Of a stretch of DNA of 53,781 bases, positions 6,274-34,609 are shown one piece after another; positions within the stretch are counted from its first letter, which is position 1, and each line of letters begins with the position of its first letter. The stretch comes from Paludibacteraceae bacterium. Lineage in GTDB: Bacteria > Bacteroidota > Bacteroidia > Bacteroidales > Paludibacteraceae. A program made the translations under genes and the position numbers. The DNA lies in the NCBI GenBank assembly GCA_024401535.1, contig JAKSKX010000017.1, forward strand, positions 1 through 53,781, written 5' to 3'. The notes below the pieces were generated by a model. That model saw only the letters and a list, made by a program, of their open reading frames with translations. It made no database searches and was not told the DNA's origin.

Positions 6274-8469
6274 ATGGCAAATTTAAGATTCAAAGTTGTA
6301 GGCGAGGCTTTTAGAAAGAAAGCGTTGGCTGTACAGGCTCCAGAGGGAATGACTTCGGAGTATTACGGAAAGTATGTCTTCAATAGAGAGACAATGGTTA
6401 AGTACCTATCTAAGGAGACTTACAAGATTTTAACAAAGGCAATTGACAATGGCGAGACTCTTGACCGTACAGTAGCAAACGGTGTAGCAGCAGGAATGAA
6501 ATCTTGGGCTATGGAGATGGGAGCTACTCACTATACTCACTGGTTCCAGCCTCTAACAGAGGGAACTGCAGAGAAGCATGACTCTTTCATCGAGTATGCA
6601 GGTGCTCCTGGTGGTTCAGTCCTAGAGGAGTTCTCTGGTAAGCTACTTGCTCAGGCAGAGCCAGATGCTTCTTCTTTCCCTTCAGGTGGTATCCGCTCAA
6701 CTTTCGAGGCACGTGGTTATACAGCTTGGGATCCATCTTCTCCAGCATTCATCGTTGATGATACTCTATGTATTCCAACAGTGTTCATCTCTTACACAGG
6801 AGAGGCACTTGACTATAAGACTCCACTTCTAAAGGCTGTTAATGCTGTAACAAAGGCAGCTACAGAGGTATGTCACTATTTCGACTCTTCAGTAAAGAAG
6901 ACTTACTCTTACCTAGGTTGGGAGCAGGAGTACTTCTTGGTAGATGAGGGTCTTTACTCAGCTCGTCCAGACCTACTTCTTACAGGTCGTACATTGATCG
7001 GCCACGAGTCGGCAAAGAACCAGCAGCTTGACGACCACTACTTCGGTGCAATTCCTGAGAGAGTTCAGGCATTCATGAAGGATCTTGAGTTCGAGGGCTA
7101 CAAGTACAACATTCCTTTGAAGACTCGCCACAACGAGGTAGCTCCAAACCAGTTCGAGCTTGCTCCAATCTTTAACGAGGTTAACTTCGCAATCGACCAG
7201 AACCTTTTGATCATGAACTTGATGGACAAGGTTGCTCGTAAGCACGGATTCCGTGTTCTACTTCACGAGAAGCCATTCGCAGGTATAAACGGTTCAGGTA
7301 AGCACTGTAACTGGTCAATCGGTACTGATACAGGTGTTGGTTTGTTCACTCCTGGAAAGACTCCAGAGGAGAACCTACAGTTCATCACATTCGTTGTAAA
7401 TGCTTTGATGGCTGTTTACAAGAACAACGCATTGCTAAAGGCTTCTGTAATGACAGCTCAGAACGCTCACCGTCTTGGAGCTAACGAGGCACCTCCTGCA
7501 ATCATCTCTGCATTCCTTGGTACTCAGATTTCTGCAGTTCTTGATCAGCTTGAGAACGCAAAGGCAGAAGAGGCTATCGTAATGGCAGGCAAGAACAAGT
7601 TGAAGCTTGGTGTTTCTACAATTCCTGAGGTTCTAGTAGATAATACAGATAGAAACCGTACTTCTCCATTCGCATTCACAGGTAACCGTTTCGAGTTCCG
7701 TGCTGTTGGTTCTTCTGCAAACTGTGCTTGTGCAATGATCGCCCTAAACTCTGCTATGGCTGCACAGCTTAAGGAGTTCAAGGCTGAGGTAGATGCTAAG
7801 ATTGCTGCTGGCGATAGCAAGAGCAAGGCTCTATTCGAGGTTATCAAGAAGTACATCAAGGAGAGCAAGTCTATCCGCTTCGACGGTAACGGTTACTCAG
7901 ACGAGTGGAAGGCAGAGGCTGCTAAGCGTGGTTTGAACTGCGAGACTTCAGTTCCAGTAATCTATGACGCTTACACAACTCCTGAGTCTGTAAAGATGTT
8001 CCAGAGTGTGAACGTATTTACAGAGCGCGAGCTTGAGGCAAGAAACGAGATTAAGTGGGAGATCTACACTAAGAAGATCCAGATCGAGGCTCGTGTACTT
8101 GGTGACCTTGCAATCAACAATGTCATTCCAATGGCTACTCACTACCAGTCGCTTCTTCTTGACAACCTATACAAGATGTCTCAGATCTATGGTAAGGACG
8201 AGGCTTTGAAGCTTTCTAAGACTAACTCTGACCTAGTTAAGGAGATTTCTGAGAGAGTTGCTAAGATTAAGTCTTACACAGAGGAGATGATCGAGGCTCG
8301 TAAGGTTGCTAACAAGATTGACTCAGAGAGATCTAAGGCAGTTGCTTATCACGATACAGTTATCCCATTCTTTGACAAGATCCGTTACGAGATTGACAAG
8401 CTTGAGATGATCGTTGACGATGAGTTGTGGACACTTCCTAAGTACCGCGAGATGTTGTTCATCGGATAA
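6274..8469 (+). CDS. glnN: Glutamine synthetase type III (GSIII)
   Basis: A 731-residue enzyme that makes glutamine from glutamate, ammonium and ATP in the cytoplasm. Length and sequence fit the GSIII family typical of Bacteroidetes, much longer than GSI. Visible signatures include the N-terminal GSIII block with WFQPLTEGTAEKHDSF, the metal/glutamate site GWEQEYFLVD, the stretch HNEVAPNQFELAP, and NGSGKHCNWS near the active site. Codon choice is strongly biased toward a small codon set, as in highly expressed genes. It has its own promoter and terminator. Two sigma-54-driven small RNA units follow it, and gltBD and asnB lie 35 kb downstream; together these are the nitrogen assimilation core of the window. 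Confidence 0.97.
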   Translation: MANLRFKVVGEAFRKKALAVQAPEGMTSEYYGKYVFNRETMVKYLSKETYKILTKAIDNGETLDRTVANGVAAGMKSWAMEMGATHYTHWFQPLTEGTAEKHDSFIEYAGAPGGSVLEEFSGKLLAQAEPDASSFPSGGIRSTFEARGYTAWDPSSPAFIVDDTLCIPTVFISYTGEALDYKTPLLKAVNAVTKAATEVCHYFDSSVKKTYSYLGWEQEYFLVDEGLYSARPDLLLTGRTLIGHESAKNQQLDDHYFGAIPERVQAFMKDLEFEGYKYNIPLKTRHNEVAPNQFELAPIFNEVNFAIDQNLLIMNLMDKVARKHGFRVLLHEKPFAGINGSGKHCNWSIGTDTGVGLFTPGKTPEENLQFITFVVNALMAVYKNNALLKASVMTAQNAHRLGANEAPPAIISAFLGTQISAVLDQLENAKAEEAIVMAGKNKLKLGVSTIPEVLVDNTDRNRTSPFAFTGNRFEFRAVGSSANCACAMIALNSAMAAQLKEFKAEVDAKIAAGDSKSKALFEVIKKYIKESKSIRFDGNGYSDEWKAEAAKRGLNCETSVPVIYDAYTTPESVKMFQSVNVFTERELEARNEIKWEIYTKKIQIEARVLGDLAINNVIPMATHYQSLLLDNLYKMSQIYGKDEALKLSKTNSDLVKEISERVAKIKSYTEEMIEARKVANKIDSERSKAVAYHDTVIPFFDKIRYEIDKLEMIVDDELWTLPKYREMLFIG

Positions 8470-8493
8470 TTCGGGGAATAACCCAACAATAAT

Positions 8494-8527
8494 AAAGAGA
8501 GCTGACCGTAAGGTTGGCTCTCTTTTT
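8494..8527 (+). terminator. glnN terminator
   Basis: A 14-bp stem (AAAGAGAGCTGACC with GGTTGGCTCTCTTT, two G-U pairs) closes on GTAA and is followed by T residues. Confidence 0.9.
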
Positions 8528-8573
8528 GCTTCTGGAATAAAAATTTTGATTATTTCTGTGGATTATGAAAGTT

Positions 8574-8589
8574 TGGCACGCTTTTTGCA
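8574..8589 (+). promoter_or_regulatory. Sigma-54 (RpoN) promoter of small RNA unit 1
   Basis: TGGCACGCTTTTTGCA matches the consensus TGGCACRNNNNTTGCW at every defined position except R (G fits). The -24 GG and -12 GC have the required spacing. Expected start is near 8600 (GG). Confidence 0.85.
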
Positions 8590-8599
8590 TAATATAAAG

Positions 8600-8730
8600 G
8601 TGAAAGATATTTCGTTGAGAAACGAGGTCTTTCTTGTAGTTTAGTCCTAATATTAAATCCTTTTGTACTGCAATGAAAGTTGCAGTAAAAATAGGGTAAA
8701 GCAAAAAGCTTTATCCTGTTTTTATTTTTA
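8600..8730 (+). ncRNA. Predicted small RNA 1, sigma-54-driven
   Basis: Runs from the predicted start to an intrinsic terminator. Structures seen: a TCGTT-GAGA-AACGA hairpin near the 5' end; ACTGCAA-TGAAAG-TTGCAGT (7 bp); and a terminator stem AGGGTAAAGC/GCTTTATCCT (8693-8717) followed by a T-rich tail. The unit is repeated almost identically at 8924-9060. A one-base indel between the copies destroys any shared reading frame, so conservation is not for protein. Size about 125-130 nt. Target unknown; position behind glnN suggests nitrogen control. Confidence 0.7.
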
Positions 8731-8897
8731 ATGGATTCCTTGTTCTTTATTATATTAGTTTCCCCTTTGTGAACTAATCTCTAATAGTCTTTGCCCAAAA
8801 ACAATAATCGCCCAAAATCAATGTATTTTTGATTTTTTAGTAGAATTCCCATGAATACAGAACAAATTTTTAAAATTATCCCCCTTTTGTAAAAGTT
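8731..8897 (+). other. Spacer between the two small RNA units
   Basis: About 165 bp, AT-rich, no gene or terminator seen. It could hold activator-binding sites for the second sigma-54 promoter, but I recognise no dyad. Confidence 0.3.
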
Positions 8898-8913
8898 TGG
8901 CACGCTTTTTGCA
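8898..8913 (+). promoter_or_regulatory. Sigma-54 (RpoN) promoter of small RNA unit 2
   Basis: Identical 16-mer TGGCACGCTTTTTGCA to the first unit, 324 bp downstream. Identity between the units begins a few bases before this element (AAAGTTTGG) and continues through the transcript. Confidence 0.85.
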
Positions 8914-8923
8914 TAATATAAAA

Positions 8924-9060
8924 GTGAAAGATATTTCGTTGAGAAACGAGGTCTTTTCTTGTAGTTTAGTCCTAATATTAAATCCTTTTGTACTGCAATG
9001 AAAGTTGTAGTTAAAAATGAGGTAGGGAAGTTCGACTTCTTTATCTCATTTTTATTTTTA
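8924..9060 (+). ncRNA. Predicted small RNA 2, sigma-54-driven
   Basis: Near-identical to unit 1 through about 115 nt; differences are an A/G near the start, one inserted T, and a C-to-T in the ACTGCAA/TTGTAGT stem that leaves a G-U pair. The terminator differs in sequence but not in design: a 19-bp stem with three G-U pairs (9013-9031 with 9035-9053) around TCG, ending in a T-rich tail. Conserved fold with changed bases in the terminator supports a real RNA. It ends about 130 bp before mnmG, which has its own promoter. Confidence 0.7.
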
Positions 9061-9190: not shown

Positions 9191-11065
9191 ATGACAGAGA
9201 ATTATGACGTTATAGTTATCGGAGCTGGACATGCGGGCTGTGAGGCCGCCGCCGCTTCGGCACATTTGGGCAGCAAGACACTGCTCATAACAATCGATAT
9301 GCATACAATAGCTCAGATGAGCTGTAATCCCGCTGTGGGAGGTATCGCCAAAGGTCAGATCGTTAGAGAGATAGACGCACTTGGTGGCATGATGGGTATC
9401 GTTACAGACTTGACGGCTATTCAATATCGTATGCTCAACCGTTCAAAGGGGCCTGCGATGTGGTCGCCAAGAAGTCAGGCTGACCGTCAGAGATTCAGCG
9501 AGAAATGGAGAGAAATCCTTGAAAATACAGAGAATCTGAACATCTGGCAGGATATGGCAAACGACATAATCCTAGAGAATGGCGTTGCTGTAGGTGTCAA
9601 GACGCAGATGGGTGCCGAGTTCCGTGCCAAATCCATTGTCATTACTGCAGGTACATTCCTTTCCGGTCTTATGCATTGCGGAGAGAAACAGATCAAGGGA
9701 GGTAGAATCAGCGAACCTGCTGCCTACGGACTTACAGAAAGACTCAAGGAGGCAGGAATCAATGTCGGAAGAATGAAAACCGGAACGCCATGCCGTATTG
9801 ACGGACGTTCCATAGATTTTGACAGACTCTCTATTCAGGATGGAGAGGATGATTTCCATAAGTTCTCTTTCTTGGACTTCAAACCCCGTCCTTTAAGACA
9901 GCGCCCTTGTTTCATTACATACACAAACGAGCGTACTCACGAGATTTTGCGTGAGGGATTGCCTTTTTCTCCATTATATAATGGCCAGATCAAGAGCATC
10001 GGCCCTCGTTATTGTCCTTCTATAGAGACCAAGATTGTAACTTTCGCAGATAAAACTCAGCACCAGCTGTTTATCGAGCCGGAGGGCGAGACAACACAGG
10101 AGTATTATTTGAACGGCTTCTCATCTTCGCTTCCTCTTGATATTCAGGTCAATGCTATTCATACTATTGCAGGACTCGAGAATGCAAAGCTTTATCGTGC
10201 AGGCTATGCCATAGAGTATGACTACTTTGATCCTACTCAGCTAAGACATACGCTTGAAAGCAAAGTTGTACCAGGCCTGTTCCTTGCAGGTCAGGTGAAC
10301 GGAACTACAGGTTACGAGGAGGCTGCCGGTCAGGGACTTATGGCAGGTATAAACGCTCACCTTCGTGCCCATGATGCAGGTGAATTTACCCTTGCACGTG
10401 ACGAGGCTTACATCGGCGTGTTGATTGACGACCTTGTCTGCAAGGGAGTTGACGAGCCTTACCGTATGTTCACTTCCCGAGCCGAGTACCGTATTCTTCT
10501 TAGACAGGATGATGCAGACATGCGTCTTACAAAGAGAAGCTATGAGCTAGGTCTTGCAACGCGCGAAAGAATGGATTTGCTAAATCAAAAAATCGAGCAG
10601 ATGGAGAAGCTTGGCGAGTTCTGCCGCAACTTCTCTATTAAGCCGGCATTGATTAACTCTTTCCTTGAAAGTCAGGGTACGACACCGCTCCGTGAGGGTT
10701 GTAAATTGGTTGATTTGGTTAATCGTCCTCAGCTTACTATAAACCAGTTGAGTGAGGCTATAGCTCCGTTAAAAGAGATGGTGGATTCCATGCCAAACAG
10801 AAACGAGGAGATTGTTGAGGCTGCAGAGATTCAAATCAAATATGACGGTTACATCAAGCGAGAGACTCAGATTGCCGAGAAGCTTCGCAGACTTGAAAAC
10901 ATTAAGATAAAGGGCAAGTTCGACTATATGTCAATTCATCAAATAAGTACTGAGGGAAGGCAAAAGCTGACACGCATTGACCCAGAAACTATTGGTGAAG
11001 CGAGCAGAATTTCGGGTATCAGCCCTAGCGATGTGAATATACTTCTTGTTCTACTTGGAAGATGA
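9191..11065 (+). CDS. mnmG: tRNA uridine 5-carboxymethylaminomethyl modification enzyme MnmG (GidA)
   Basis: A 624-residue FAD protein that, with MnmE, modifies uridine 34 of tRNAs reading NNA/NNG codons. Evidence: the dinucleotide-binding motif VIGAGHAGCEAA at the N-terminus; SCNPAVGGIAKGQ and the MLNRSKGPAMWSPR block; the FLAGQVNGTTGYEEAAGQG motif near residue 365; and the C-terminal helical domain ending SRISGISPSDVNILLVLL, which contacts MnmE and tRNA. Length is normal for the family (about 620-630). Monocistronic with its own promoter and a probable terminator. Confidence 0.97.
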   Translation: MTENYDVIVIGAGHAGCEAAAASAHLGSKTLLITIDMHTIAQMSCNPAVGGIAKGQIVREIDALGGMMGIVTDLTAIQYRMLNRSKGPAMWSPRSQADRQRFSEKWREILENTENLNIWQDMANDIILENGVAVGVKTQMGAEFRAKSIVITAGTFLSGLMHCGEKQIKGGRISEPAAYGLTERLKEAGINVGRMKTGTPCRIDGRSIDFDRLSIQDGEDDFHKFSFLDFKPRPLRQRPCFITYTNERTHEILREGLPFSPLYNGQIKSIGPRYCPSIETKIVTFADKTQHQLFIEPEGETTQEYYLNGFSSSLPLDIQVNAIHTIAGLENAKLYRAGYAIEYDYFDPTQLRHTLESKVVPGLFLAGQVNGTTGYEEAAGQGLMAGINAHLRAHDAGEFTLARDEAYIGVLIDDLVCKGVDEPYRMFTSRAEYRILLRQDDADMRLTKRSYELGLATRERMDLLNQKIEQMEKLGEFCRNFSIKPALINSFLESQGTTPLREGCKLVDLVNRPQLTINQLSEAIAPLKEMVDSMPNRNEEIVEAAEIQIKYDGYIKRETQIAEKLRRLENIKIKGKFDYMSIHQISTEGRQKLTRIDPETIGEASRISGISPSDVNILLVLLGR

Positions 11066-34584: not shown

Positions 34585-34593
34585 CAACACAAT

Positions 34594-34609
34594 TGGCACG
34601 GAATTTGCT
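34594..34609 (+). promoter_or_regulatory. Sigma-54 (RpoN) promoter
   Basis: TGGCACGGAATTTGCT matches TGGCACRNNNNTTGCW fully. Expected start near 34620, 54 bp before the lipoprotein start codon. Third sigma-54 site of the window; the other two drive the small RNAs behind glnN. Confidence 0.8.

Follow-up and report, generated by a model that had tools for sequence, protein, structure and literature searches.

Among described regulatory RNAs, the closest in apparent working to those considered here are Qrr1–5 of Vibrio, a set of several near-identical small RNAs made from sigma-54 promoters, which repress translation of luxO as a form of feedback according to the accessible part of one report (PMC8043402). 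Within the Bacteroidota, the nearest comparison is with the FopS/GibS RNAs of Bacteroides thetaiotaomicron. These are described in the accessible text of PMC11697453 as multi-copy small RNAs that act at translation starts and combine a conserved, exposed segment with a terminator, and FopS is described there as transcribed from sigma-ABfr promoters and as using RbpB, an RRM protein, and a seed sequence termed R1. Sigma-54 control itself is poorly mapped in this phylum. The sigma-54 regulon of Flavobacterium psychrophilum covers protein quality control, envelope stress and gliding in the accessible part of PMC9723704, and that of PMC12316311 describes grpE and groES of B. thetaiotaomicron as dependent on sigma-54.

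The locus analyzed here comes from a Paludibacteraceae genome of 2,957,147 bases (2.96 Mb; 69 contigs, 91.5% complete; G000), and the window is the whole 53,781-nt stretch of DNA that was examined. Like the Qrr set, the genome carries several near-identical units headed by sigma-54 promoters, and repression of the mRNA for an NtrC-type activator is predicted. Qrr RNAs need Hfq. A Qrr model exists in Rfam, and the units have no Rfam match at gathering score. They further differ from Qrr in belonging to another phylum, in the lack of any DNA-binding domain found in the activator, and in the lack of a common upstream site found at their promoters. Our best reading by analogy is that these RNAs would work most like Qrr with LuxO, yet are neither members nor homologs of that family, the arrangement having been reached independently in Bacteroidota. 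From FopS the units differ in their sigma-54 sites, in a GNRA-capped hairpin and in that no RRM_1 protein was found in the genome (91.5% complete).

An initial remark that the RNAs have no described counterpart in the phylum agrees with what we found, since the units score below the gathering threshold of every Rfam family and a literature search covering titles and abstract openings, with few subscription papers, returned no sigma-54-driven small RNA of Bacteroidota. Candidate Rfam memberships (BTnc231, HrrF, CrcZ, MicX and others) were rejected with scores far below gathering. The Bacteroides small RNA BTnc231 (RF04180) aligns with the unit 1 promoter and RNA at a sub-threshold 22.5 bits against a gathering score of 80.4, with many pairs broken and the middle of the core falling in an undisplayed gap, and it was not among the matches listed for the five loci. 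We judge this match to be due to chance.

The twin units and their genomic setting

Two tandem units lie between glnN and mnmG, with the following features.

6274–8469, + strand: glnN, type III glutamine synthetase (Pfam GSIII_N and C-terminal domains)
8494–8530, + strand: terminator-like hairpin between glnN and unit 1 (inverted repeat 8494–8507/8512–8525, then a T run)
8573–8588, + strand: unit 1 sigma-54 promoter, TTGGCACG-N4-TTGC (-24/-12), from sequence, pattern search and a genome-wide count of 8 sites versus 0 reversed controls
8600–8730, + strand: predicted unit 1 small RNA, about 130 nt, from its fold, with a probable start about 12 nt past the -12 GC
8602–8633, + strand: unit 1 5′ hairpin, GAGA (GNRA) loop at 8617–8620, from the fold and a GNRA-type loop in 19 of 20 units
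8634–8664, + strand: unit 1 conserved core UUGUAGUUUAGUCCUAAUAUUAAAUCCUUUU, from a 14-sequence alignment; 3′ half predicted to pair with a sigma-54 activator mRNA leader
8667–8686, + strand: unit 1 second hairpin (ACUGCAA/UUGCAGU), from the fold; relatives carry other stem sequences
8688–8730, + strand: unit 1 intrinsic terminator, fold of -15.6 kcal/mol, then a T-rich run
8897–8912, + strand: unit 2 sigma-54 promoter, from sequence, pattern search and the genome-wide count
8924–9060, + strand: predicted unit 2 small RNA, fold z of -5.21, with a probable start placed likewise
8926–8957, + strand: unit 2 5′ hairpin with GAGA loop, from the fold and the GNRA-loop survey
8959–8989, + strand: unit 2 conserved core, equal to that of unit 1 letter for letter, from repeat comparison and alignment
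8992–9011, + strand: unit 2 second hairpin (ACUGCAA/UUGUAGU, G-U compensated), from sequence and fold
9012–9060, + strand: unit 2 intrinsic terminator, unlike that of unit 1 in sequence, fold of -21.8 kcal/mol, inverted repeat 9012–9031/9035–9054
9191–11065, + strand: mnmG (gidA), the downstream neighbor (Pfam GIDA)
34593–34608, + strand: perfect sigma-54 site, the third in the window, located 81 nt upstream of the start codon (ATG) of a lipoprotein-like ORF, outside the RNA family

The first-pass annotation had described two tandem units of about 130 nt with perfect RpoN promoters, nearly identical for about 115 nt and with a one-base indel, and this description is borne out. Both promoters read TTGGCACGCTTTTTGC, a perfect sigma-54 match in the pattern search of the window. 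The units align as two repeat blocks, 8563–8632 with 8887–8956 (96% identity over 70 nt) and 8630–8691 with 8955–9016 (97% over 62 nt), with a one-base offset between the blocks. Each predicted RNA opens with a 5′ hairpin and continues through a mostly exposed stretch to a second hairpin and an intrinsic terminator, and its fold is matched by none of 200 dinucleotide shuffles (z of -7.27 for unit 1 and -5.21 for unit 2). A weak A-U stem appears within the core around the loop CCUAAU in the minimum-energy fold. The terminators, folded alone, differ in sequence and keep the stem-loop, and the partner of the stem half ACTGCAA is TTGCAGT in unit 1, altered in unit 2 to TTGTAGT, where pairing persists through a G-C to G-U change; both points had been noted at the outset. 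ORFs of at least 60 amino acids touch unit 1 (8414–8644, + strand, 76 amino acids, starting inside glnN; 8459–8704, - strand, 81 amino acids), and none that long is listed over unit 2. A conserved peptide, already ruled out in the first reading, was therefore rejected, since no ORF is kept between the two copies.

Together with the paralogs, conservation and rpoN gene described below, the sequence and structure give good support to the proposal that the twins are sibling small RNA genes with sigma-54 promoters. Their transcription and its dependence on RpoN are probable from these sequence features.

The position of the twins behind glnN had also suggested a nitrogen response, a proposal that finds no support here. 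The terminator-like hairpin at 8494–8525 argues that the units are more than a tail of the glnN transcript, and no sigma-54-like site with at most one mismatch is present ahead of glnN in the window. We compared 14 neighbor proteins from this genome with 48 locus records of 0.4 to 8 kb each, which represent 19 distinct RNA neighborhoods, two being the window's own (the records include L086, which is not counted as family). Neither glnN nor mnmG was found beside the RNAs in any of the 48 records except L034, which is the window itself. The sole other neighbor match was hypU4, the ORF after the fourth unit, at 29% identity in L078. Same-genus relatives have two loci, each with its own constant neighbors, and the three other paralogs of this genome adjoin genes other than glnN. 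Thus, a nitrogen-responsive RNA tied to glutamine synthetase has the placement of the twins in its favor and the other loci, as well as the promoter search, against it, and we find this reading barely credible.

The units could alternatively serve the downstream gene as leaders or attenuators and not act as free small RNAs. Indeed, all four loci of this genome, holding the five units, precede a gene on the same strand. However, the downstream genes are unrelated to one another, the terminators are strong, what comes after unit 1 is unit 2, and the next ORF lies on the opposite strand in four of 27 listed units (L081, L106, L107 and L108). On balance, we consider a leader function very unlikely. 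At the edge of the window, Rfam identifies a tRNA gene truncated by the contig end (positions 1–54, - strand).

Paralogs, sigma-54 sites and conservation

A DNA search of the genome extends the earlier two-copy observation to five copies, the twins and three more.

C6:45527–45692, - strand: third copy, with neighbors tex and dapF (names from reading of the ORFs)
C45:38973–39109, + strand: fourth copy (unit 4), with neighbor metK and its SAM-II riboswitch (metK from reading of the ORF, SAM-II from Rfam)
C6:24936–25038, + strand: fifth copy, with neighbors dnaG and dprA (names from reading of the ORFs)

The riboswitch upstream of metK (RF01726; L004:1137–1195, - strand, on C45) scores 56.7 bits against a gathering score of 44. 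Among the five copies, the hairpin and terminator sequences vary and the core GTTTAGTCCTAATATT(A)AATCC is constant, with a 3-nt insertion in the core of unit 5.

All five copies are headed by perfect sigma-54 sites. The pattern TTGGCACGNNNNTTGC occurs eight times in the whole genome and its reversed control not at all. Seven of the eight sites lie outside ORFs of at least 100 codons, and five of those seven head RNAs of the family. When one mismatch was allowed, 30 sites were found versus eight reversed controls, with one further site (L119) intergenic by the same criterion. The three intergenic sigma-54-like sites that lack an RNA lie 45 to 81 nt before ORFs with lipoprotein- or export-like N-termini. 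One of them, at 34593–34608 in the window, is probably part of the sigma-54 regulon.

The promoters have the -24 GG and -12 GC elements with the correct spacing, and the genome encodes both rpoN and AAA+ activators. PF00158 matches at six places, two of which are strong (L095 and L096). In a coarse test for an upstream activator site, no 8-mer was common to four of the five upstream regions. Activators that lack a DNA-binding domain, such as FlgR, need no such site, and the result therefore fits an activator that acts independently of one. One of the two strong candidates may be of this kind, as no DNA-binding domain was found in it with Pfam at an E value of 0.001:

L095 and L101:4767–6011 (C67:56766): receiver-AAA+ sigma-54 activator, flanked by a DUF3108 gene and a deaminase-like gene

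The second (L096) is an AAA+-Fis protein with a Fis-type HTH and no receiver found, and it adjoins an LptE-like gene (LptE from reading of the ORF). A probable sigma-54 regulator of F. psychrophilum is likewise listed alongside an LptE protein in the accessible part of PMC9723704. In the record of the first activator, two tandem 124-amino-acid ORFs with the same, lipoprotein-like translation are present (L101:491–865 and 1028–1402, on C67).

The RNAs recur outside this strain, as expected of a conserved family. A sequence-only model built from the five copies matched 16 of 200 genomes of the bacterial family, comprising this genome, eight of the same genus and seven from one other genus (g27), which carry a shorter form. 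Seven of the same-genus genomes hold two copies each and one (G125) holds a single copy. A pattern scan of 84,980 species genomes returned 25 stretches, 22 from Paludibacteraceae or other Bacteroidales, two from Candidatus Scybalocola fimicaballi and one from Bacteroidetes. The last (L086) was rejected as a family member, being by its sequence a chance match inside a gene.

The 5′ hairpin keeps its loop type on differing stems. We surveyed 20 units (five from this genome, nine from the genus, three from g27 and three further Paludibacteraceae records, with L024 and L025 omitted as near copies of L023), and in 19 of these a stem of at least four pairs with a GNRA-type loop lies between promoter and core. 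The loops read GAGA, GUGA or GGGA, in some cases lengthened by one base, in a search confined to such loops. The exception is unit 4, with three pairs. For the 19, the fraction of letter shuffles matching the hairpin ranges from 0 to 0.042 per unit. The four inner pairs all change on both sides among units, for example from U-A to C-G by the loop and from G-C to U-A at the third pair, although several surveyed rows are near copies, such that independent pair changes are fewer than counted.

The core of about 30 nt barely varies, and most of its columns are invariant in the 14-sequence alignment. Its 5′ half, UUUGUAGUUUAGU, is kept in g27 too. This half is not explained by the activator pairing described below, which points to a further role, such as binding other targets or a protein.

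Complementarity of the core to a sigma-54 activator mRNA

We scanned the unit 1 core by duplex energy against 657 translation starts, taken with simple ORF calls from about 0.89 of the 2.96 Mb. Taken over all 657 starts, pairing by the core does not exceed that of 40 shuffled cores, and generic anti-start-codon pairing was accordingly rejected for this genome. The mRNA of the receiver-AAA+ activator ranks second (predicted duplex of -19.5 kcal/mol), directly after an exported-protein gene (-19.6). We selected this activator among the top ranks for its meaning, and it alone among the top-ranked genes was carried into the test in relatives. With the core of unit 5, the activator ranks first of the 657 at -21.4 kcal/mol, where the 3-nt insertion creates an uninterrupted 13-bp helix with the leader of the same genome. 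A search of this genome for 11-mer complements gave matches, MltD- and AtpE-like genes among them, at a level judged close to chance.

An ortholog of the activator is present in all eight same-genus genomes at 65 to 66% identity. The letters directly before its ATG read AAGGATTTAATATATAGG in two genomes, AAGGATTTAATTTAGG in four and AAGGATTTAATATAGG in two, and each of these three variants is the reverse complement of the core segment CCUAAUAUUAAAUCCUU with one bulge. The main helix in the eight relatives has 18 to 19 pairs with one bulge and extends to the start codon. Its energy is -20.1 to -21.6 kcal/mol, and none of 81 background starts from the genus is as good (best -17.2). Thus, each of the nine genus members examined shows complementarity between the 3′ half of the core and the activator translation start (-19.5 to -21.6 kcal/mol); the eight relatives are close kin with three leader variants and are not independent of one another.

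Shuffling gives a similar picture. In seven relatives, 0 to 3 of 500 shuffled leaders and 0 to 3 of 500 shuffled cores pair as well as the natural sequences, versus 8 of 500 leaders and 17 of 500 cores in the window's genome, where the pairing taken by itself is weak evidence and not decisive. When the full RNA was cofolded with the leader, the energy was -18.7 kcal/mol in this genome (1 of 100 random starts from it as good) and -15.0 in G110 (0 of 86). Controls from the same genome, the other activator at -10.1 and rpoN at -9.0, do not pair.

As far as the tests reach, complementarity is restricted to the genus whose core has the pairing segment. Activator orthologs with open frames of 389 to 399 amino acids occur in all 16 outside genomes examined, all of which were chosen for carrying a related RNA. 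Against their leaders the core of the window's genus reaches a mean of -8.9 kcal/mol over 15, with a best of -14.6, and -4.5 for G514. The g27 core, identical in seven g27 units, gives -5.0 to -13.3 against seven g27 activator leaders, and this pairing was judged absent. Because g27 has the RNA in the absence of this pairing, the activator is not the founding target of the family. In other families, RNAs set against the activator leaders of their own genomes reach -7.0 to -19.3 (-19.3 in G576, -17.1 in G347 and -17.0 in G323), but such RNAs pair well with starts generally.

These findings are consistent with a negative feedback loop, which we favor with moderate confidence as the role of the five-copy family. 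Sigma-54 with an activator would transcribe the five RNAs from their sigma-54 promoters, and the GNRA-capped 5′ hairpin, the second hairpin and the strong terminator would enclose a core that stays exposed. Its 3′ half, UCCUAAUAUUAAAUCCUU, would then pair across the translation start of the receiver-AAA+ activator mRNA, and this pairing, made through the core segment UCCUAAUAUUAAAUCC, would block translation. In this manner, sigma-54 activity would raise the RNA and lower the activator. The promoters, structure, paralogy, conservation and complementarity across the genus members examined are computed results. Every step of the loop itself is a model prediction rather than an experimental result, and we infer both that this activator drives the promoters and that repression takes place in the cell. 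That the receiver-AAA+ protein drives them is an assumption, and the Fis-type activator is an equal candidate. If the loop is true, a multi-copy RNA directed against a sigma-54 activator would represent an independent origin of the Qrr/LuxO circuit and would give a direct handle on the role of sigma-54 in these gut bacteria. The predicted base pairing is precise enough for a compensatory-mutation test.

The same RNAs might instead act chiefly on other mRNAs, for example those for exported or outer-membrane proteins, as part of an envelope-stress response in which pairing with the activator is minor or accidental. The three other intergenic sigma-54-like sites, which head lipoprotein-like or exported ORFs, fit this proposal, as do the F. 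psychrophilum regulon and the sigma-54-dependent grpE and groES cited above. Among the 60 best-pairing starts, 21 belong to exported proteins versus a shuffled mean of 15.1 (2 of 100 shuffles as good), and among the best 30 there are 11 versus 7.5 (8 of 100). Over all 657 starts, however, the rank test for exported proteins was reached by 21 of 100 shuffled cores, in line with the lack of any overall excess of pairing with starts. We therefore regard main targets of this kind as unlikely, while giving the proposal some weight.

The core could also be a site for an RNA-binding protein that the RNAs titrate, on the CsrB model or with an RRM protein as for RbpB and FopS. UAGU repeats are numerous ahead of the terminator in relatives from other families, and RbpB is reported to bind GUAGGAUA in the accessible text of PMC12119571. 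Such a site would not be expected to form a helix of 18 to 19 pairs with one mRNA start, and a search for RRM_1 (PF00076) gave no match in this genome (91.5% complete) with a positive Bacteroides control, which led us to reject an RRM sponge here. A protein site as the main function of the core appears improbable to us, and we retain the feedback loop as the preferred explanation.

Related RNAs in other Bacteroidales families

RNAs of a similar plan occur in other families of the order, where a sigma-54-like site is followed by CAUAGUUUAG or a variant, UAGU repeats and a terminator. A core resembling UAGUUUAGU is common to these RNAs and to the form found in the window's genus. Most of these RNAs have CAUAGUUUAG or a variant together with UAGU repeats, and the form in the window's genus lacks the CAU. 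A loose pattern search with TAGTTTAGT in 393 genomes of the order gave 25 rows, in which sharing of the motif is partly by construction; many rows read as chance matches inside genes, and the reversed control also matches in many genomes. A second model (R2) gave 31 rows, comprising five training sequences, eight family members recognized by eye, 17 matches examined individually and one (G514:C79) that has no locus record. Across both searches, the RNAs of this plan recognized by eye are L046 to L048 (f38), L054 (f43), L176 (f112), L184 and L187 (f30), L199 (f74), and also L053 and L177 (f8), which have a core that lacks the CAU and a weaker promoter. L191 and L192 (f8) and L178 (f38) have the repeats and terminator with no clear promoter. 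Ten of the 17 individually examined R2 matches lie antisense to a translation start, with CAT facing ATG.

We then scored the RNAs of six genomes against the translation starts of the same genome. In G514, G341 and G490, none of 60 shuffles pairs as well as the natural RNA, and when the shuffles keep the CAU in place, the counts are 2, 1 and 0 of 60, respectively. G323 (39 of 60; an RNA that lacks the CAU), G375 (27 of 60) and G435 (6 of 60, from 51 starts only) do not stand out. The pairing is not species-specific, in that the G514 RNA scores a z of -3.1 on its own starts and -4.3 on those of G341, and only -0.3 to -1.2 on those of G323, G375 and G490. Generic start pairing is thus supported for the CAU form of other families, in three genomes, and for that form alone. 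The CAU-form RNAs look antisense to a general mRNA start and possibly act as a broad damper of translation.

Common descent of the CAU form and the form in the window's genus is likely but unproven. A larger picture can be drawn in which an old and widespread layer of sigma-54 small RNAs in Bacteroidales broadly damps translation in several families by antisense pairing of CAU with AUG, and in which the core of the window's genus has been rewritten to hit the sigma-54 activator, providing a Qrr-like brake on the whole regulon. We put this picture forward tentatively, as one that may be right but that we would not yet bet on.

In one further genome (G402), intergenic-looking repeats rich in TAGTTAGTAG are present at two places (L189 and L200) and are apparently unrelated to the RNA family.
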